Positions 37,974 to 48,525 of a stretch of DNA of 64,000 bases are shown piece by piece; positions within the stretch are counted from its first letter, which is position 1, and every line of letters starts with the position of its first letter. The notes under the pieces were generated by a model. It did not search any database, was not told the origin of the DNA, and saw nothing but the letters and a program-made list of their open reading frames with translations. The position numbers were made by a program, and so were the translations under genes. Source of the stretch: Bacillota bacterium (GTDB taxonomy: Bacteria > Bacillota_E > Sulfobacillia > Sulfobacillales > JAIMBI01); NCBI GenBank assembly GCA_021828405.1, contig JAKARZ010000005.1, positions 13,305 through 77,304 on the forward strand, given 5' to 3'.

Positions 37974-39142
37974 TTACGAGGCCGGGGTGAGCGTGACCTC
38001 GTCCCCCAGGGTTTCCAAGCGTTTCACGGCTTGGCGCCGCACCCGGTCTTGGTCCCGCCGGTCAAAGTAGTCCCCCCCGAGATCCGCGTAGGGGGTCTGG
38101 CGGGCGTCCACGGCGAGGGTGTGCGCCACGATGACGGCCGCGCGTTTCGTCCCCTTGGTGCGCACCATCCGGCGATACTGGGCCCCCACGTAGGTCGCTT
38201 TCGTGCGGCCCGCCGCGTGCGCTGCGTCCACCAGCGTCGCGCCGAGCGCGCGGTTCGGGGATGGTGCGGCCGGAGAAGCGTTTGCCGGCGCTCTCATGGT
38301 TCCCGGGAGCCAGGCCGATCCCCTTTGTCAGCGCGGCGGCACTCCGAAAGGCCTCCACCGTCGGGCCCCCCGCCGCCAGGATGGTTTCCGCCACCCGGGT
38401 CTTCACCCCCGGGAGGCTCTCCAGGAGCTCCCGGGGGGCCGCCAAAGGGGCCAGGCGGGTCGCCACCTCCGCATCCAAGGCCTGGATCTGGGTGTCCAAG
38501 GCGTCCATGTGCCGGAGCTGTTCTTGCAAGAAGAAGCGCTGGTGCGCCCATCTGTCCCGTGAGGGCCGCCACCAGTTCGGTGGTCGAGGCGCGCACGCGC
38601 TCATCCGCCAACGCCGCAAGGATCCGAGACCCAGAGACCCCCCGCACATCGCTTACGACCGACGCGAGCTTAATGTTGGCCCCCTCCAACACCTTATTGG
38701 ATCCGGTTGGGTCGCGCGCCCGTTCCTCGATGACGCTCTTGCGGTAGCGGGTCAGCTCCCGCAGTTCTCGTTGGGCCCGGTCCGGAATGAAACTCGGGCG
38801 CAGGAGCCCATGGGGTAAGAGATCCGCGATCCACTCGGCGTCCTTCACGTCGGTCTTGCGGCCCGGCACCGCCTGGATGTGCGCTGGGTTGACGAGCCAG
38901 GTGGTGAAACGGCTCTCCAGTAGGTTGAAGACGGGCTTCCCGTAGCTCCCGGTGGACTCCATCGCTACATGCGTCACCTGGTGCTCGGTCAACCAGGTCT
39001 GCAACGCCAGCAACGCCGGGGTGGTGGTGCCAAACGTCTCCACGGTGCGGAGGCGGTCGCGGCCTTGGCGGACCAAGACACAGGCGACCACGGTCTTCTT
39101 GTGGACATCGAGCCCGGCGCACCGGGCAAAGACGACCTCCAT
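37974..39142 (-). pseudogene. IS110-family transposase with two frameshifts
   Basis: The N-terminal DEDD domain is intact: [32 protein letters not shown] and [16 protein letters not shown]. Near 38560 the frame shifts to FFLQEQLRHMDALDTQIQAL and the helix-hairpin-helix LLESLPGVKTRVAETILAAG. Near 38290 it shifts again to VDAAHAAGRTKATYVGAQYR and the usual tail. The complete product would be about 390 residues. A recent loss, because the protein-level match is still good throughout. Confidence 0.85.
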
Positions 39143-40754: not shown

Positions 40755-41215
40755 CGAGCCGATCACGAGGAGCCGCCGTCTCGCCGCCGGTCGCGCAAAT
40801 CTTTGGGCCCAGAGCCCGTTTGTATTAGAATCGTCACTGGCCACCTCCCGCATTCCACGGACGGGGCTCGTGTCTTTCTGTCGGTCATGCGCACGACGAT
40901 CGAGGCGGCCCGCCCGCTGAGACCAAACGCCAGGGGGCGGTGTGCCGTTGCGCCGCTCCGGTGCACACGCGGCCGACATCCCGCCGAACGGGGGTGGGCG
41001 CGGCACGCATCAATCCCTGCCCGCCGGACGTCGCAACGCGCGGTGCTCGTCCGACCGGGGGGGTAGGGGGCCATCCGGTCCCCGCGAAATGGGAACAAGC
41101 GGCGGCTGTCCGGTGGGCCGCCCCGTTGCTAGCGTCAATGTGTGGGCCCGGGACAGGCGTCGGCGAGGGAAGATCGGGGAAACGTCGGAGAATCGTCCAG
41201 GGAGGATGAGTAGCG
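40755..41215. other. Intergenic region between divergent genes
   Basis: About 460 bp between the small transporter and the alcohol dehydrogenase, which point away from each other. No gene is seen. TAATAC on the minus strand near 40825 could be a -10 box for the transporter. A GGGAGG at 41200-41205 serves the dehydrogenase. Confidence 0.4.
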
Positions 41216-42325
41216 CTGAGAACCGAGACAATCGAGGCGGTCGTCATTGCGGACTATGAACAAACCCCCCAGGTGGAGTGGGTCGAACTGGAGGAGCCGG
41301 GCCCCGGTGAGGTGCGCGTCTCCATTCGCGCGGCGGGTGTGTGTCACAGTGATTGGCATGCCGTGACCGGCACCCTGCCGTTGCCCATGCCCATGGTGTT
41401 GGGCCACGAGGCTAGCGGCACGGTCACCCAAGTCGGCCCGGACGTCGAGCGGGTGGCGGTGGGGGATCGGGTGGTGGTCACGTGGGTGCCCGTCTGCGGG
41501 CGCTGCTTTTGGTGCCTGAACGGCGCCCCCGAACTGTGTGAGACCGCCAACCGGGGAGCGGTGGACGGCACGAACGCGGACGGGCATACCCCGCTCCGCT
41601 GGCGCGGGGAGCCCCTGCACCGATTTTCCTGGAGCGGCACGCTAGCCACGGCCGCCGTGGTCCCGGAGTCCGGGGTGGTACGCATCGGGTCGGATATGCC
41701 CTGGACCGAAGCGGCGCTGCTGGGCTGTGCGGTGCAAACCGGTGTGGGGGCGGCGTTGCGCGCACCCATTGTCCCAGGCGACACGGTGGCGGTGTTAGGG
41801 CTTGGCGGTGTGGGGCTAAACGTCGTTCAAGGGTCCCGGATTGCCGGCGCCGCGAGGATCATCGGGGTAGACCCCGTCGGCTGGAAGCGCGATCTGGCGC
41901 GCGAGCTTGGGGCCACCGACACGGTGGACGCCGCCGAAGACGTCCTCACCGCGCTCTTGGACCTGACCGACGGGCGCGGCGTGGATGTGGCTTTTGAGGC
42001 CGTGGGCCAGGTGCCCCTGATGGCGCTCGCGTTCAACGCGGTCCGCCGCGGCGGCACCGCGGTCATGGTGGGCGTGCCTGAGCCCAATGCGGAGCTGTCA
42101 CTGAATGCGTTTGCGTTTCCCTCCCAGGAGAAAACCCTGACCGGATCCTGGCTGGGTGGGTCGCACCCCGCGCGCGACATCCCGCGCCTGGAGGCGCTGT
42201 GGCGGTCCGGGCAGCTGAAACTGGCGCCGCTCATCTCCAAGACGTATGCGCTCCGGGAGGTTTCGGAAGCTTTGCATGACCTCCTGACCGGCCGCGTCGC
42301 GCGGCCTGTGGTACTGTTCCCGTAG
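41216..42325 (+). CDS. Zinc-dependent alcohol dehydrogenase (MDR)
   Basis: 369 residues. Catalytic zinc ligands: Cys in GVCHSDWHA, HE in LGHEASG and the later Cys in the region ALLGCAVQTG. Structural zinc cysteines lie in PVCGRCFWCLNGAPELC. NAD-binding motif VLGLGGVGLNVVQG. The natural N-terminus (TIEAVVIADYEQTPQVEW) is open upstream of the first GTG (41273) and has no ATG; a CTG at 41216 follows GGGAGG by 10 bp and is the likely start. It opens a catabolic-looking run with a lipid-binding-like protein and an aldehyde dehydrogenase. Confidence 0.85.
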   Translation: MRTETIEAVVIADYEQTPQVEWVELEEPGPGEVRVSIRAAGVCHSDWHAVTGTLPLPMPMVLGHEASGTVTQVGPDVERVAVGDRVVVTWVPVCGRCFWCLNGAPELCETANRGAVDGTNADGHTPLRWRGEPLHRFSWSGTLATAAVVPESGVVRIGSDMPWTEAALLGCAVQTGVGAALRAPIVPGDTVAVLGLGGVGLNVVQGSRIAGAARIIGVDPVGWKRDLARELGATDTVDAAEDVLTALLDLTDGRGVDVAFEAVGQVPLMALAFNAVRRGGTAVMVGVPEPNAELSLNAFAFPSQEKTLTGSWLGGSHPARDIPRLEALWRSGQLKLAPLISKTYALREVSEALHDLLTGRVARPVVLFP

Positions 42326-42386: not shown

Positions 42387-42854
42387 ATGACGATCTTTGC
42401 GGATGCTGATGCTCTGTACAATATTCTCGGAGGATTCTTTTCGGACCGCGTCCGCTGGACGGACGAGGCCCACCTGATTCATCAGGTGGGTGGTCCCATC
42501 GCATTTATTTTCGAGCGCCCGAACGCGCAAATCTGCTGGGTGCCAGAGACCCCGGGGACGCCTTCGGAGTCAGGTGGGACGGCGGAGGCGCCTTTTCGAC
42601 TGGTGTTCGGTCCGGAGGGTCCCAAGCCGCTCTTGACTTTTCGTCAGGACGGCGACACAGCCCACCGCTTCTGGCTCGGCCTCCTCGATCTCCAACAGGC
42701 GCTCGCGCGGCAGCAGGTGCGCGCCCAGGGCCCCCTGTCGCGCGCCATGAAGCTGCTTCCGCATCTCGACGCCATCTACCCGCTGTACCCAGAATATTTG
42801 AAAAGCCAGGGCCACGGCGATTTGCTCCCGGCGGCGGCGGGGTCAAACCGGTGA
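42387..42854 (+). CDS. SCP2-like lipid-binding protein (tentative)
   Basis: 155 residues. The layout resembles the sterol-carrier-protein-2 fold: an N-terminal helix (ADALYNILGGFFSD), a beta-sheet with FRLVFGPEGPKPLLTF, a middle helix region (GLLDLQQALARQQV) and LSRAMKLLPHLDAIYPLY. Such proteins bind acyl or aromatic CoA-like ligands. ATG 42387 behind GGGGGAAG. Overlaps the aldehyde dehydrogenase by 4 bp, so the two are co-translated. Family call is tentative. Confidence 0.55.
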   Translation: MTIFADADALYNILGGFFSDRVRWTDEAHLIHQVGGPIAFIFERPNAQICWVPETPGTPSESGGTAEAPFRLVFGPEGPKPLLTFRQDGDTAHRFWLGLLDLQQALARQQVRAQGPLSRAMKLLPHLDAIYPLYPEYLKSQGHGDLLPAAAGSNR

Positions 42855-44329
42855 TCCCCGTGTGGGTGCCGGATGGGCCTTGGATCGACGGGCAGCGCCA
42901 CGACGGCGCCGCCTCACCTCTTGACGTCGAGTCGCCGTCCCAGGGGGCAGTGTTTGCCACCATCGGCGCGTCCGGCACCCCCGATGTGGGGCGTGCGGTC
43001 GCATCCGCCCAAGCCGCGTTTCAAGACAGACGCTGGCGTGGCATCCCGGTCCTGGAGCGCCAGCGCGTGCTTGGCCGGGCCGCGGAAGCCCTTCGGGCCC
43101 ACGACGGCGAACTGGCCACCCTCATCGCGAACGAGATGGGGATGCCGGAGACGGCGGCGCGCTACGTGGAAGTGCCCTACGCGGCTGGCGTGCTGGACTA
43201 CTATGCGGGGCTGGTGGCCAGCGTGGGCGGGGAAACCCTGCCCGTGGACATCCCGGGTGTGGAGCCGGCGTTTCACGTCTTCACCACCCGCCGGCCCGTG
43301 GAAGTGGCCGCCCTCATCACGCCGTGGAATTTTCCGCTCCTGCTTCCCGTGTGGAAGGTGGCTGCGGCACTCGCCGCCGGGACGGCGGTGGTGTTGAAGC
43401 CAGCGCCGGAAGCCCCGCTGACCTCTCTGGCGCTGGTGTCCCTGCTTGAATCGGCCGGGGTGCCCCCCGGGGTGGTCAACGTGTTGCCGGGCGGTGACCG
43501 GGTGGGCGCTGAGCTGTGCGCCCACCCGGGCGTGCGGCACATTTCGTTCACCGGATCCACGGCGGTGGGGCGCGAGGTCGCGGCCCAGGCGGGCCAGGGG
43601 CTAAAGCGCGTGCAATTGGAGCTGGGCGGCAAGTCGCCCGCGCTGGTGTTTGCCGATGCCGACCTGGAGAACGCCGTCAGCCAGTGTCTGTTTGGCGTGT
43701 ACTTCAACAGCGGTCAGGTGTGTCAGGCGGCCAGTCGGGTGCTCGTTCACCAAAGCCAGTACGACGCCTTCCTGGAGCAGTTCACGGCGCGGGCCGATGC
43801 CCTCAGGGTGGGCGCCGCCACGGACCCCGACGCTGACTTGGGCCCCGTCGTACGAGAGAATCAGCTGTCGGTGATCCAGGGCCATGTGGACCGCGCGCTG
43901 GCTGGCGGAGCCCGGTGTCTCATGGGCGGCCACGCGCTGCCAGGCCCGGGATACTTTTACGCGCCCACTGTGCTGGCCGACGTGTCGGCAGAGTTGTCCG
44001 CGTTCCAGGAGGAGCTGTTTGGCCCGGTCGCCGTCGTGACCCCCTTCGCAACCGACGCGGAGGCGGTGGCACTCGCCAACGCGACCCCGTACGGCTTGGC
44101 GGCGGCCGTCTTCACCAGCAACCTGCGCCGCGCCCTCAGCATCAGTGGAGAGCTCGCGGCCGGTACGGTGTGGGTCAACACGTCTCAGATGCAAAGTCCC
44201 ACGGTGCCGTTCGGGGGCATGAAGGCGAGCGGGCTCGGCCGCGAGCTGGGCCGCGCGGGGTTGGAGGAATTCCTCGACACCCAGGCCACGTGGGTCGATC
44301 TCCACGAGGCGCCCCCCACGTACTTTTGA
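42851..44329 (+). CDS. NAD(P)-dependent aldehyde dehydrogenase
   Basis: 492 residues. Family motifs in order: ALITPWNFPLLLPVWK, ALAAGTAVVLKPAPEAP, FTGSTAVGREVA, the general-base Glu in LELGGKSPALVFADAD and the nucleophilic Cys in FNSGQVCQAASRVLV. The C-terminus has EEFLDTQATWVDL. GTG start overlapping the previous gene by 4 bp. It probably oxidises the aldehyde made by the upstream alcohol dehydrogenase; the substrate cannot be named. Confidence 0.94.
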   Translation: MIPVWVPDGPWIDGQRHDGAASPLDVESPSQGAVFATIGASGTPDVGRAVASAQAAFQDRRWRGIPVLERQRVLGRAAEALRAHDGELATLIANEMGMPETAARYVEVPYAAGVLDYYAGLVASVGGETLPVDIPGVEPAFHVFTTRRPVEVAALITPWNFPLLLPVWKVAAALAAGTAVVLKPAPEAPLTSLALVSLLESAGVPPGVVNVLPGGDRVGAELCAHPGVRHISFTGSTAVGREVAAQAGQGLKRVQLELGGKSPALVFADADLENAVSQCLFGVYFNSGQVCQAASRVLVHQSQYDAFLEQFTARADALRVGAATDPDADLGPVVRENQLSVIQGHVDRALAGGARCLMGGHALPGPGYFYAPTVLADVSAELSAFQEELFGPVAVVTPFATDAEAVALANATPYGLAAAVFTSNLRRALSISGELAAGTVWVNTSQMQSPTVPFGGMKASGLGRELGRAGLEEFLDTQATWVDLHEAPPTYF

Positions 44330-44362: not shown

Positions 44363-45109
44363 ATGGTGAGAGCCTGGCTGCTGGATTTGGACGGCACGCT
44401 GCTGGACCTTGACGGCGATGCCTTCTTGGAGGCGTACCTCGAGGAAGTTGCCCAATGGATGGCGCCGATCGTGGACCCGGCCCGCTTCACCGAAGCGCTC
44501 TGGTCGGCGGCCATCCCCGTCATGGTGAACCGCACGGGCCATCCAGGCCGCTCGAACAGCGACATGCTGTGGGCGGCACTGGCCGACGCACTCCAGACGC
44601 CGGCGGCAACCCTGTGGCAGCGGTTCGAGGAGTTTGTCCAAGGAGACCTTACGCGCATCTATCCCGGCGGGTCGCCGATGCCCGGGGCCCACGACCTGGT
44701 GGCGGTCGGGCGGGCGCGCGGGATGAAACTTGCGGTGGCCACGATGCCCATCTACCCTCGGCCGGTCATCGACGAGCGGCTCAGGCGCGCGGGTCTGTTG
44801 GACGTGCCCTGGGACCTCGTGGCGACCGATGCCATGGAATCCGTGAAGCCACAGCCCGCCTACTACCAAGAGATCGCCGACCGGCTCCAGGTGGCGCCGA
44901 CCGAGTGCCTGATGGTGGGCGACGATTACTTCCGCGACATGGCTGCTCGGAAGGTGGGCATGGCTACCGCGTATGTGGGCCCGCCCCTAGTCGGGGTGGA
45001 CACAGGGCCCTCTGGCACGCTCACCGACTGGGTCCGTGTACTGGGGGGGGATGGGCGAGGTCCCACCTGTGCGGAAGGTGCCATGAACAGCGGCTTGAGC
45101 GGCGGGTAA
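44363..45109 (+). CDS. HAD-superfamily hydrolase
   Basis: 248 residues. Motif I LLDLDGTLLDLDGD, motif II threonine in AVATMPIYPRP, motif III lysine in SVKPQPAYYQ and motif IV MVGDDYFRDMAAR. The cap inserted after motif I is helical (subclass C1). It resembles phosphoglycolate-phosphatase-like enzymes, though the substrate is open. Start ATG 44363 with GGGAGG about 10 bp upstream; 33 bp after the aldehyde dehydrogenase. Confidence 0.85.
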   Translation: MVRAWLLDLDGTLLDLDGDAFLEAYLEEVAQWMAPIVDPARFTEALWSAAIPVMVNRTGHPGRSNSDMLWAALADALQTPAATLWQRFEEFVQGDLTRIYPGGSPMPGAHDLVAVGRARGMKLAVATMPIYPRPVIDERLRRAGLLDVPWDLVATDAMESVKPQPAYYQEIADRLQVAPTECLMVGDDYFRDMAARKVGMATAYVGPPLVGVDTGPSGTLTDWVRVLGGDGRGPTCAEGAMNSGLSGG

Positions 45110-45177: not shown

Positions 45178-46263
45178 ATGCGTTTTGGCTTTGACTGGGG
45201 CGACGACGCCTCGGAGTGGATGACGGGGATGCGCACAGGCCTGGCGCGGACCCTTACCCGGCACGGGCACACCCTTTCACCCACGCTGGTCGGGGCGGAC
45301 CTGGTGTTTCATCAAGTGGACCCCGAGCGTCCCCGACCGTTTCGGCGCCAGTACCAGGCTACGTTCGTCGTGGCCGTGGTGGAGGGGCAGCCCCTCCCGG
45401 CGACGGACCGCTTGAAGACGCTCTACCATGTGCTGATCCGGTCCATCTCCAACTTGCTCCTGTATGGCGGACCTGCCGCCGCCGGGCGCGCACAGGTCGC
45501 ACTAGTTACCCCGGAACTGGGCAACTACACTGTCGACGGCGCGGCGGGCGACGCATGGTTCGAGGCGGTGTACGAGCGGGTCGCGCCCTTGGCCGAGTCC
45601 CATCTGGTGATCAACAACGTGTTTGACGAGGACCTGCCCGACGAGCTCGCAGAGGGCACCGAGGTCACTCGGCAGATGGCCGAAGCAGCCCGCACGCTGG
45701 ACCAATGGCAGTTGTTTCCTACCCCCTTTCCGATGGCCGAATTTCTCCCGCCCGAGGACATGCGGCAGATGCGCCACCTGTTTGGCATCGGCGGCCTCTC
45801 CTACGGCAATCTGAGCGCCCGCCACGACGCTGAGCGCTTCTGGATGTCCGCCAGCGGCGTGGACAAGGGCAAGGTGGGCGTCGTAAGCCGGGACATCCTC
45901 CTGGTCAAAACGTACGACCCCGTCGCCAACGCCATGCGCATTTCGGTGCGGCCCGGCTCCGACCCGCTCCGAGTGTCGGTGGATGCCGTCGAACACTGGG
46001 GCATTTACCGCCGACACCCCGGGATTGGTGCTCTGATTCACATCCATGCGTGGGTGGACGGCGTCGTCAGCACCACCGTCAACTACCCCTGCGGGACAAT
46101 TGAGATGGGTCAGGCGATGTCCGACCTCCTGGACCAGGATCCGCATCCCGAGTCAACCATCATCGGACTGAAGAACCACGGCATCACGGCGACCGGCCCC
46201 AATTTTCCCGACATCTTGGCCCGGCTGGCGGATCGGGTCCGCCCCACCGTTCCGATGCAGTAA
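45178..46263 (+). CDS. Class II aldolase/adducin-family protein with N-terminal extension
   Basis: 361 residues. The C-terminal half (about 185-360) is the aldolase fold: GLSYGNLSARHD, FWMSASGVDKG, ALIHIHAWVDGVV (the HxH zinc site) and LKNHGITATGPN. The first 175 residues are an extra domain with no match I recognise. ATG 45178 behind AAGGAGG. Related enzymes are sugar-phosphate aldolases or decarboxylases. Context with an aldehyde dehydrogenase and HAD phosphatase suggests sugar-acid or aldehyde breakdown (inference). Confidence 0.82.
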   Translation: MRFGFDWGDDASEWMTGMRTGLARTLTRHGHTLSPTLVGADLVFHQVDPERPRPFRRQYQATFVVAVVEGQPLPATDRLKTLYHVLIRSISNLLLYGGPAAAGRAQVALVTPELGNYTVDGAAGDAWFEAVYERVAPLAESHLVINNVFDEDLPDELAEGTEVTRQMAEAARTLDQWQLFPTPFPMAEFLPPEDMRQMRHLFGIGGLSYGNLSARHDAERFWMSASGVDKGKVGVVSRDILLVKTYDPVANAMRISVRPGSDPLRVSVDAVEHWGIYRRHPGIGALIHIHAWVDGVVSTTVNYPCGTIEMGQAMSDLLDQDPHPESTIIGLKNHGITATGPNFPDILARLADRVRPTVPMQ

Positions 46264-46331
46264 ACTGAACGCAGAGCCGTCCGTGGTGACTCGATGGCAA
46301 CTCTGAGGGCGACTCTAAGGAGAGAGCTTCG

Positions 46332-47369
46332 ATGTCCTCCGCGCCGATGGTGCCGTTGCAGCGCGTGGTGTGGGAGGTGGGCGCGGGTCCCAGGGTCCGC
46401 TCCACCTCCCCCACGCTGACGCTTCGCGAGGCGCGGCGCGTGGTGCGTTGCATGGCCCGCTCGCCCGAGCGTCCCACGGTGGTGCTGTCCGGCGTCGATC
46501 CGCTGGCGCCGCCGGGCCGGGGCATCCCCGTCGCGGGATTGGTGGAGGTGCTCGTGGCCTACCGCTTCCCCACCGGGGTGGCCCTTCACCCCTTAGCAGC
46601 CTGCACCACCCGTGCCCCGGGGATTTGGGCCGCCATGGGGGTGCAGCACGTCGTGTTGCACATCGACACCGCGCTGGACAGCCCACTGCCTGACGCCCCC
46701 GGGGTGCGCCGTACGGACGGTGCCACACTGGTGTACGCGCGGGCCGTGGTGGACGCCGGGATGCAGCTCCATATCACCACGCGCGTGACCGCGCTGACCG
46801 CGCCTGACCTGATCGCCATCAGCGCACTGCTCCCGTCGCTGCACGTGTCAGCGTGGGAGGTGTCCTTCGTGGTGCCTACGGCCGCCGTCGCCCGATCCGA
46901 GTCGCTCCGGGCAGCGCGCCAGGAGCGGGTGCTGGCCTGGCTGACCCGCTACGCGGCCAGCGCCCCGTTTCCGGTCACCACCGAGGGGGCGCCGCACTTT
47001 ATTCGCCATACTCATCCCCATCCGGAGCACAGGACCCTGGTGCCCGTACTGCGCGACGCCCAGGGCATGCTCTACATCACGGCCGGCGGCGACGTGTGGC
47101 CGGGGCCGGACCTGCCGCTCAGTGCGGGCAATGTGCGCCAGCACTCCCCGCAGGTCCTCTACCGATCGACGCCCTTGTTCAAAAACCTGCGGAACGCCTC
47201 TCAGTTGGGGGGGCGTTGCGGGTGGTGTGCGTGGAGTCGGGTATGCGGGGGATCGCGGGCCCGCGCCTATGCGCTCACCGGAGACGCTTTGGCCCAGGAT
47301 CCCCACTGCGCCCCCGTCATGGTGCCGGCGGCGCCTCAGTCTCGGCGGCAATCGCAAACGCCAACTTGA
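46332..47369 (+). CDS. Radical-SAM/SPASM-like protein lacking the SAM-cluster cysteines
   Basis: 345 residues. The C-terminus matches SPASM-type radical SAM proteins of the AhbD/NirJ-like or TIGR04053 kind: LGGRCGWCAWSRVCGGS, then RARAYALTGDALAQDPHC. The N-terminus aligns with VWEV (usual xWEVTxxC) and VLSGVDPL (usual LTGGDPL), but the CxxxCxxC loop between them is missing: the sequence goes VWEVGAGPRVRSTSPTLTLR with no Cys and about 12 residues fewer. A normal radical cluster could not form. The frame is open throughout, so this is not a frameshift. It overlaps the convergent dehydrogenase by 53 bp. Confidence 0.75.
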   Translation: MSSAPMVPLQRVVWEVGAGPRVRSTSPTLTLREARRVVRCMARSPERPTVVLSGVDPLAPPGRGIPVAGLVEVLVAYRFPTGVALHPLAACTTRAPGIWAAMGVQHVVLHIDTALDSPLPDAPGVRRTDGATLVYARAVVDAGMQLHITTRVTALTAPDLIAISALLPSLHVSAWEVSFVVPTAAVARSESLRAARQERVLAWLTRYAASAPFPVTTEGAPHFIRHTHPHPEHRTLVPVLRDAQGMLYITAGGDVWPGPDLPLSAGNVRQHSPQVLYRSTPLFKNLRNASQLGGRCGWCAWSRVCGGSRARAYALTGDALAQDPHCAPVMVPAAPQSRRQSQTPT

Positions 47370-48525
47370 TCGACCCGCCGCGGTGGTGCACCAGGGTCCG
47401 AAACGCCGTGCGATACTGCTCCAGCCGGTAGGCATGCGTCACCAGCGCGTCTAGCGCGGGGGCGTCTGCCAGTCGGGCTACGGCCACCGGCAGATGGTTG
47501 ACGCCGCCGACGTGGTAGCCGTACGTCCCCACCACCGTGAGGTTACGGGTCCACAGCGGCGAGAAGTCCGCGGACGGGCGCGCCAGAGCCCCCAGCACCA
47601 GCACCTGCCCTCCGGGCCGGCACAGAGCCAGTGCCTCGCCCATGGTTTCGGGGGTCCCCACCGTATCGACCACCACGTCGGACCCCCAGGGATGCAGGGC
47701 GGGCGCCCCCCACATCGGGGGCGCCAGGGGTTGGCCCGCCAGCACCGCCCGCTCTCGGACGCCGCCGCCCACCAGGCGGTGGGCGCCCAGCGCCCGAGCC
47801 ATGTTTCCCTGGTGCCGGTGGCGCACCTGCACCACCACTTCCACCAGGTTCATGCTCGACAGGGCCCAGGTCGTCAGCAGCCCCACTGTTCCGGCGCCCA
47901 GCACCAGCACCGTCTGCACGTCCTGCCAGCGAAGACGAGCCAGGCCAGCCAGCACAATCGCCAGCGGCTCGGTCAGCACGGCGCGCCGGAGCGGCAGGCG
48001 GTCCGGCACCGGAATCAGCTGGGCCGCCGGCGCCCACATGCGCGTCGCCCAGCCGCCGGGCAGTTGTCCATGGAAGCCCAGCAGGAGACCTGGACCCAGT
48101 CCCACATCCGCCCGCCGCTCGCAGCCATCGTCCGCGTGTGCGGCACACGCGCGGCACAACGGCAAGCCCCGCGCGCGGCAGCCCAGCGAGGGATCCACCA
48201 CCACCGCCTCATGCGTGTCGAGCCGCCTCGCCACGACCTCATGCCCCAGCACGGCCGGGAACTGCGTCAACGGCGCCAAATACGGAGACGACCTCCCCGT
48301 GACGATGCCAATGTCTGACCCGCAGATGCCACTCCACACGGGTTCCAGAGCCACCCAATCCCCATCGGGGGGTAATTGCGGGGGCGGCAGCGCCTCCAGG
48401 CGGAGCGCGCCCAGTCCTAGGGCCATCGCCGACCCGGGTGCCAAGCGCTGCGCGGCAATCCGCGCGGGATTCAGATGGTAGCGCAGACCCTGGTACGAAC
48501 CGTCCGACCGAACCGACGTGCTCAC
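47317..48525 (-). CDS. Zinc-type MDR alcohol dehydrogenase-like protein
   Basis: 402 residues. Motifs: SGICGSDIGIV (catalytic Cys), VLGHEVVARRLD (HE pair), a Cys-rich structural zinc lobe (LPLCRACAAHADDGC) and LVLGAGTVGLLTTWAL. The NAD-binding half is otherwise normal. The N-terminal 40 residues (GSYQGLRYHLNPARIAAQRL) are longer than usual. GTG start behind GAGGAAGG. It overlaps the hydrolase gene by 4 bp, making a two-gene unit that converges on the radical-SAM-like gene. Confidence 0.85.
   Translation of the reverse strand: MSTSVRSDGSYQGLRYHLNPARIAAQRLAPGSAMALGLGALRLEALPPPQLPPDGDWVALEPVWSGICGSDIGIVTGRSSPYLAPLTQFPAVLGHEVVARRLDTHEAVVVDPSLGCRARGLPLCRACAAHADDGCERRADVGLGPGLLLGFHGQLPGGWATRMWAPAAQLIPVPDRLPLRRAVLTEPLAIVLAGLARLRWQDVQTVLVLGAGTVGLLTTWALSSMNLVEVVVQVRHRHQGNMARALGAHRLVGGGVRERAVLAGQPLAPPMWGAPALHPWGSDVVVDTVGTPETMGEALALCRPGGQVLVLGALARPSADFSPLWTRNLTVVGTYGYHVGGVNHLPVAVARLADAPALDALVTHAYRLEQYRTAFRTLVHHRGGSIKLAFAIAAETEAPPAP

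Follow-up and report, generated by a model that had tools for sequence, protein, structure and literature searches.

A 64,000-nucleotide stretch of a Bacillota contig (JAKARZ010000005.1), the whole of which is referred to here as the window, contains a gene for a 345-residue protein of the radical S-adenosylmethionine (SAM)/SPASM type that has lost the CX3CX2C motif of the SAM-binding cluster and kept four C-terminal cysteines of the kind that hold an auxiliary cluster. The protein is conserved and under selection, and its motifs point to a pseudoenzyme whose auxiliary-cluster domain has stayed intact. We give about an even chance to the idea that it is a conserved partner protein that has lost SAM cleavage, carries its cluster on an AuxII-type (auxiliary cluster II) site and works in electron relay or docking. 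The gene, called the pseudo-SAM gene below, and its parts are as follows.

46317..46324, plus strand: ribosome-binding-like site AAGGAGAG, read in the sequence, 7 bases 5' of the ATG
46332..47369, plus strand: pseudo-radical-SAM/SPASM gene, open reading frame (ORF) of 345 amino acids
46380..46415, plus strand: remnant loop at the place of CX3CX2C, residues 17-28, from alignments and three-frame translation
46491..46505, plus strand: GVDPL, residues 54-58, a degenerate form of the family's GGDPL, from alignment
47217..47309, plus strand: auxiliary-cluster motif C296, C299, C305, C326 (CX2CX5CX20C), from alignment

Loss of the SAM-binding cluster motif and degeneration of the barrel

Eight pseudo-SAM copies were compared, namely the window protein, the proteins P0001-P0003, the copies in genomes G001-G003 and a copy in genome G005, and CX3CX2C was missing from all eight in the alignment. 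Where canonical relatives read W-E-[LIV]-T-R-A-C-x3-C-x2-C, the window protein runs from W-E-V straight into a short loop rich in glycine, proline and arginine, which is 11 residues shorter than in the canonical copies and differs in length among the orthologues. CX3CX2C was found in none of the three forward frames translated over 46350-46460 and thus there is no hidden small frame change. A frame change or assembly error was ruled out, given that no forward frame has the motif and that the orthologues stem from several records and sources. The first-pass annotation of this DNA had described a radical-SAM/SPASM-like protein without the radical-SAM cluster motif, which is borne out by the alignment and the family match, and had put the loss down to deletion of the CxxxCxxC loop (about 12 residues) without a frameshift, in agreement with the 11 missing residues and the absence of the motif from every frame.

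The damage extends past the cluster loop, because most invariants of the SAM-binding barrel are gone as well. Invariant positions were defined as those at least 95% identical in 58 motif-intact (canonical) alignment rows, where motif-intact means carrying CX3CX2C and such copies are only presumed to be active. All eight pseudo-SAM copies kept 7/40 of these positions in the N-terminal barrel, and the window protein alone, with the cluster loop excluded, kept 9/29; the invariants lost in the pseudo-SAM copies include R130, Q154, F185, G191 and R192. The GGD/E-type SAM-binding motif is also degenerate, with GVD in the window protein and valine in place of the family's G66 in seven of the eight copies; the remaining copy has lost G65 instead. 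The C-terminal part contrasts with this, as all eight copies kept 25 of its 27 invariants, and the count for the window protein alone is also 25 of 27. The contrast between barrel and C-terminal part (Fisher's Exact Test, p = 5e-10) assumes independent positions and rows, which they are not. The earlier description of the rest of the frame as well preserved thus holds for the C-terminal part (25/27) but not for the barrel (9/29).

Retention of the auxiliary-cluster motif

The C296/C299/C305/C326 motif was present in all eight pseudo-SAM copies and in 58/58 canonical rows. The window protein has six cysteines in total, the remaining two of which (C40 and C91) are unconserved even among orthologues, and a full SPASM set of seven cysteines with two auxiliary clusters is therefore impossible. 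What was found instead in all eight copies was the NirJ-type pattern of a single auxiliary cluster, CX2CX5CX20-21C, built here on the four conserved cysteines. The full SPASM-type cysteine set claimed in the first-pass annotation is accordingly correct as to the four C-terminal cysteines, but these are a one-cluster NirJ-type set and not the seven of SPASM proteins. For NirJ, excerpts of PMC12505453 describe a four-cysteine [4Fe-4S] cluster bound by this pattern, and the window protein would probably bind one such cluster on C296/C299/C305/C326. C326 aligns opposite Cys-341 of PqqE, a residue that PMC10906245 names as a ligand of AuxII, and the retained site is therefore taken to be AuxII-type.

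Family assignment and comparison with named families

The top NCBIfam match of the 345-residue protein was TIGR04053 (171 bits, which does not reach the cut-off of 395), followed by AhbD (114 bits) and NirJ2 (75 bits). Two motif-intact relatives, P0005 and P0006, likewise scored narrowly under the TIGR04053 cut-off of 395 (371 and 388 bits). A Pfam search of the protein up to an E-value of 1 gave no family, Radical_SAM included, and the orthologue P0004 scored 14.3 against a Radical_SAM cut-off of 29.5. In the AlphaFold model (predicted local distance difference test score, pLDDT, 90.6) the fold is kept, and the order typical of radical SAM proteins, a barrel and then an auxiliary domain, is predicted.

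The window protein is similar to TIGR04053 proteins in its near-equal length, in the order of its secondary structure and in the C-terminal CX2CX5CX20C with GGSRARA, and differs from them in the absence of CX3CX2C and in the degenerate GGD and other barrel motifs. The C-terminal CX2CX5CX20-21C is reported for both NirJ and AhbC (TIGR04051 and TIGR04546) in the same excerpts (PMC12505453). However, NirJ, AhbC and AhbD (TIGR04051, TIGR04546 and TIGR04545) are enzymes, whereas the window protein occurs naturally with the radical-cluster motif missing and scored at most 114 bits with their profiles, which have cut-offs of at least 500. Pseudo-SAM/SPASM families have already been named by NCBI, and judged by score the window protein seems distinct from them: TIGR04347 (pseudo-SAM/SPASM protein) and TIGR04304 (GeoRSP SPASM domain protein) are similar by NCBIfam name, but the window protein scored 32.3 bits with the former (cut-off 525) and 36.5 bits with the latter (cut-off 300). 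In the open literature no paper was found that names TIGR04053 and, among the papers listed, none on a SPASM pseudoenzyme by title, where the ambiguous wording "pseudo-sam" could hide one.

Orthologues, paralogues and the origin of the clade

Orthologues from a protein search fell into four clusters, with identities of 95, 83, 80 and 76% and in no case a precomputed Radical_SAM domain. A genome scan found three metagenome-assembled genomes labelled Bacillota (G001, G002 and G003) that each carry the pseudo-SAM gene. The first-pass annotation would have been contradicted by a frame change or by close homologues with the motif, and neither was found: the orthologues at 76-95% identity share the loop loss. 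Within the same order, genome G005 carries a copy of 48% identity (identical to P0121) in the same gene order, with all three motif cysteines gone and a loop closer to canonical length. This copy keeps 20/29 barrel invariants compared with 9/29 in the window protein and therefore looks like an earlier stage. The motif-bearing copies of G001, G002, G003 and G005 are separate paralogues at other loci, so that coexistence with a motif-intact paralogue was seen in 4/4 genomes checked.

In a tree of 74 rows, calculated with the loop columns omitted, the eight pseudo-SAM copies grouped as one clade (support 100/99), the stem of which was long (0.62). This clade joined the motif-intact copies of G001-G004 at 85/95, and the G005 pseudo-SAM copy was itself a long branch. 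We infer from the tree that a single motif loss following duplication would be the best explanation.

When the G005 copy was used as the query, 108 of 154 genomes searched had a match, and the motif was read in only part of these: in 33 loci (29 with CX3CX2C and 4 without) and in 36 motif-intact copies of the tree, a good number of which are genes already among those loci. Twenty further regions were mostly picked for late-starting matches; 13 ORFs with the C-terminal pattern, every one of them carrying CX3CX2C, came from 12 of these regions, and the other 8 gave no ORF by the C-terminal pattern used. The occurrence of the pseudo-SAM gene in four genomes is a count among the copies read, and second copies of several genomes lie outside it. 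None of the 31 pattern matches in viral contigs encodes a relative.

Selection on the pseudo-SAM gene

The reading frame is uninterrupted in all eight pseudo-SAM copies, and the ratio of nonsynonymous to synonymous substitution rates (dN/dS) among the window, G001, G002 and G003 was 0.16-0.29 (six pairs). For the pairs G001-G002, G001-G003 and G002-G003 the values were 0.157, 0.190 and 0.191 for the pseudo-SAM gene and 0.132, 0.151 and 0.205 for the motif-intact paralogue. When dN/dS was pooled by region (six pairs for the pseudo-SAM gene and three for the paralogue), the two genes were alike in the barrel (0.28 vs 0.26) and the auxiliary domain (0.11 vs 0.08), and the largest gap was at the former cluster loop (0.30 vs 0.11), for which the pool is small; relaxed constraint is thus seen mainly in this loop. 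The final 17 residues of the pseudo-SAM protein, which overlap the convergent gene downstream, are seemingly unconstrained (dN/dS 1.28). The pseudo-SAM gene evolves faster than its neighbours: dN/dS of the adjacent aldolase gene was 0.06-0.11 among the same four, and identity to G005 is 48% for the pseudo-SAM protein vs 62-78% for five neighbouring genes. Against G005, dN/dS was 0.44-0.65 for the pseudo-SAM gene and 0.26-0.31 for the paralogue.

Gene neighbourhood

The pseudo-SAM gene lies downstream of a run of genes on the same strand and is followed by a convergent gene.

41273..42325, plus strand: zinc-binding alcohol dehydrogenase, first of the run (Pfam, NCBIfam)
42387..42854, plus strand: conserved protein of 155 amino acids without Pfam or NCBIfam match (synteny)
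42851..44329, plus strand: aldehyde dehydrogenase (Pfam, synteny)
44363..45109, plus strand: HAD-family phosphatase (Pfam, synteny)
45178..46263, plus strand: class II aldolase-domain protein, 361 amino acids, 68 bp 5' of the pseudo-SAM gene (Pfam Aldolase_II, synteny)
47317..48525, minus strand: zinc-dependent dehydrogenase, convergent (Pfam ADH_N and ADH_zinc_N, synteny)

An operon-like run with aldolase and dehydrogenases had been suggested from the sequence; this fits the aldolase gene, which is upstream on the same strand, but not the convergent zinc dehydrogenase gene, beyond which there is an alpha/beta hydrolase gene. At their 3' ends the pseudo-SAM gene and the zinc dehydrogenase gene share 53 bp on opposite strands (47317-47369). 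The same is true of loci L001, L002 and L003, and the overlap in L037 is 21 bp. The pseudo-SAM gene was located between the aldolase and zinc dehydrogenase genes in 5/5 loci (the window, L001, L002, L003 and L037). In G004 (L042) these two genes are adjacent without it, their frames being about 25 bp apart.

A motif-intact gene was found within 10 kb of one of these neighbouring genes or of paaA in 16 of 35 genomes of the order, and within 500 bp in 11. The 35 are the genomes with a motif-intact copy and wider flanks, out of 40 of the 42 with any match, and some flanks end at contig ends; G001, G002, G003 and G005 are among them and none was counted as linked. The chance figure for this linkage, 8e-15, assumes random gene placement. 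Excluded from the count were four aldehyde dehydrogenase matches that are distant (40-42%) and lie close to the copies of G001, G002, G003 and G039; the linked aldolase in G029 is distant (47%). Since the motif-intact gene is tied to this gene set in 16/35 genomes, the pseudo-SAM copy occupies a place that is frequently the motif-intact one in this family. Phenylacetyl-CoA epoxidase-like paaA, paaC and paaD genes were observed near a motif-intact gene and aldolase in L043, L049, L050 and L060, with a paaB match in L043 and L060 only. Given these paa genes near a motif-intact TIGR04053-type gene, the family may have its role in a pathway of aldehydes that are aromatic or linked to CoA.

The 155-residue protein belongs to a conserved family whose gene is flanked by those for the alcohol and aldehyde dehydrogenases, both in the window and at ten further loci in this order (L001, L002, L037, L043, L053, L054, L060, L068, L076 and L081). 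The alcohol dehydrogenase frame is open upstream (41210-41272) in a part that resembles the start of the L001 protein, and the true start is probably earlier. The aldolase-domain protein has about 200 N-terminal residues ahead of the best-scoring aldolase stretch, and these are conserved across the genomes of the order. Further upstream, at 38062-39142 on the minus strand, two overlapping frames resemble, by eye from the ORF list, a broken transposase, which we take to be of the IS110 type.

Possible function and alternatives

The first-pass annotation had favoured a cluster-binding or scaffold protein without catalysis, and this is also the interpretation preferred here, given that the orthologues share the loss and that their C-terminal motif is intact. 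A motif-intact paralogue would have been duplicated and the SAM-cleaving cluster of one copy lost once. The product would fold as a barrel plus an auxiliary domain with one [4Fe-4S] cluster on the four C-terminal cysteines, and would assist, without catalysis of its own, the pathway to which the neighbouring aldolase and dehydrogenases belong. By analogy, its most likely task would be single-electron transfer, in either direction, between the cluster at the AuxII position and the paralogue or a different redox partner; alternatively, it could serve in docking of the paralogue's substrate.

In the laboratory, variants of NirJ and AhbD that lack the radical cluster are reported to retain an auxiliary cluster (excerpts of PMC12505453 and PMC10452713), and parts of PMC10470005 implicate the second auxiliary cluster (AC2) of PapB in intermolecular electron transfer and describe PapB as able to activate an unrelated radical SAM enzyme. 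Taken together, the variants and the electron exchange by PapB would favour a cluster-carrying partner. The likeness lies in the intermolecular electron-transfer cluster, with equivalence of AC2 to the AuxII position suggested by the naming; PapB differs in being an active peptide-modifying enzyme.

Several points weigh against a partner of this kind. AhbD activity was unaffected by deletion of AuxII, according to excerpts of PMC10452713, and therefore an AuxII cluster need not be an essential relay; the electron-relay step itself is argued by analogy. Coexistence with the paralogue was read in four other genomes (G001, G002, G003 and G005), where the paralogue is at another locus, which makes a physical partnership a guess. 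G004 has the gene run without the pseudo-SAM gene. The higher dN/dS against G005 reflects weaker long-term constraint on the pseudo-SAM gene, and the placement of the clade among the G001-G004 copies is supported at 85/95 only.

It is unlikely, but worth weighing, that the protein is a tetrapyrrole- or substrate-binding carrier in which the non-catalytic barrel would hold and deliver the family's substrate in a chaperone-like manner. AhbD and NirJ, the nearest characterised enzymes, act on haem-like tetrapyrroles. AhbD is the second-best family behind TIGR04053, and the barrel is under selection (dN/dS 0.28) and predicted to be folded. AhbD variants missing either auxiliary cluster are reported still to bind iron-coproporphyrin (excerpts of PMC10452713), and binding is therefore independent of these clusters. 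However, the majority of the barrel invariants are gone, the most conserved part is the auxiliary-cluster domain rather than the barrel, and TIGR04053 is not known to have an assigned substrate.

Just as improbable as a carrier is a regulatory or structural subunit of the paralogue, the aldolase or a dehydrogenase, whose stability or activity it would set, with the cluster as a structural element or a sensor of redox state or oxygen. A folded scaffold without catalytic residues and the constant place beside the aldolase gene are consistent with a subunit, which is inseparable from a relay by sequence alone. Against a subunit, G004 has the run without the gene, and the run can therefore exist in its absence. 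A new catalytic protein, whose remaining cluster would do other redox or dehydration chemistry, is very unlikely. Residues peculiar to the five closest sequences (e.g. H86 and W256-P257-G258-P259) are invariant among them, and the G005 copy differs at these positions; a four-cysteine cluster has no free coordination site, an argument made against substrate binding in NirJ in part of PMC12505453. A decaying pseudogene that is open by chance might account for the long stem (0.62), the faster evolution than the neighbours, the loss of the loop and most barrel invariants and a dN/dS of up to 0.65 against G005, but with 8/8 frames open, dN/dS of close copies well under 1 and near that of the paralogue, and 25/27 C-terminal invariants retained, this is the least credible explanation.

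The role of auxiliary clusters in SPASM/twitch radical SAM enzymes is still debated. The pseudo-SAM protein separates two roles, since the radical-cluster motif has been shed and the auxiliary domain is constrained about as in the paralogue, and it offers a natural test case for the purpose of that domain. It also calls for caution in annotation, where the C-terminal domain alone can cause such proteins to be labelled "radical SAM enzymes" or "haem synthases".

Motif loss in other TIGR04053-type proteins

Outside the pseudo-SAM clade, at least 9 of 355 retrieved proteins had the N-terminal region without CX3CX2C (P0047, P0089, P0103, P0239, P0250, P0256, P0257, P0335 and P0336). Nine is a minimum from a biased sample: the motif was matched as C-x3-C-x2-C text in the whole protein or its first 140 residues, retrieval via shared words is tilted towards well-conserved parts of the protein, the C-terminal part among them, and motif-less matches without an N-terminus were excluded. 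The four C-terminal cysteines are present in every one of the nine, together with 24-27 of the 27 C-terminal invariants. Eight of them are without two or more further barrel invariants (e.g. G65/G66, R130, F185 and R192), which speaks against plain sequencing error. In P0250, P0256, P0257 and P0047 one motif cysteine is gone, and the case is weakest for P0047, where just one further invariant is missing. Among the listed close relatives of P0103 are proteins that carry the labels Candidatus Angelobacter and Terriglobales, which we take to belong to Acidobacteriota. On the 74-row tree the motif state changed at least six times, a count affected by the fact that the rows were picked by hand, some of them for the missing motif.

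These proteins raise the possibility, which we regard as somewhat doubtful, that radical-cluster-free TIGR04053-type proteins arose repeatedly, in the present Bacillota clade and in several further lineages, as electron carriers or docking subunits for motif-intact paralogues. If so, they would be natural counterparts of the laboratory variants with only the auxiliary cluster, and the auxiliary-cluster domain would have a job of its own. The converse, a motif that is present with the C-terminal pattern absent, was found in two of the proteins P0239-P0355, which may simply be truncated (P0292, 333 amino acids, and P0313, 332 amino acids).
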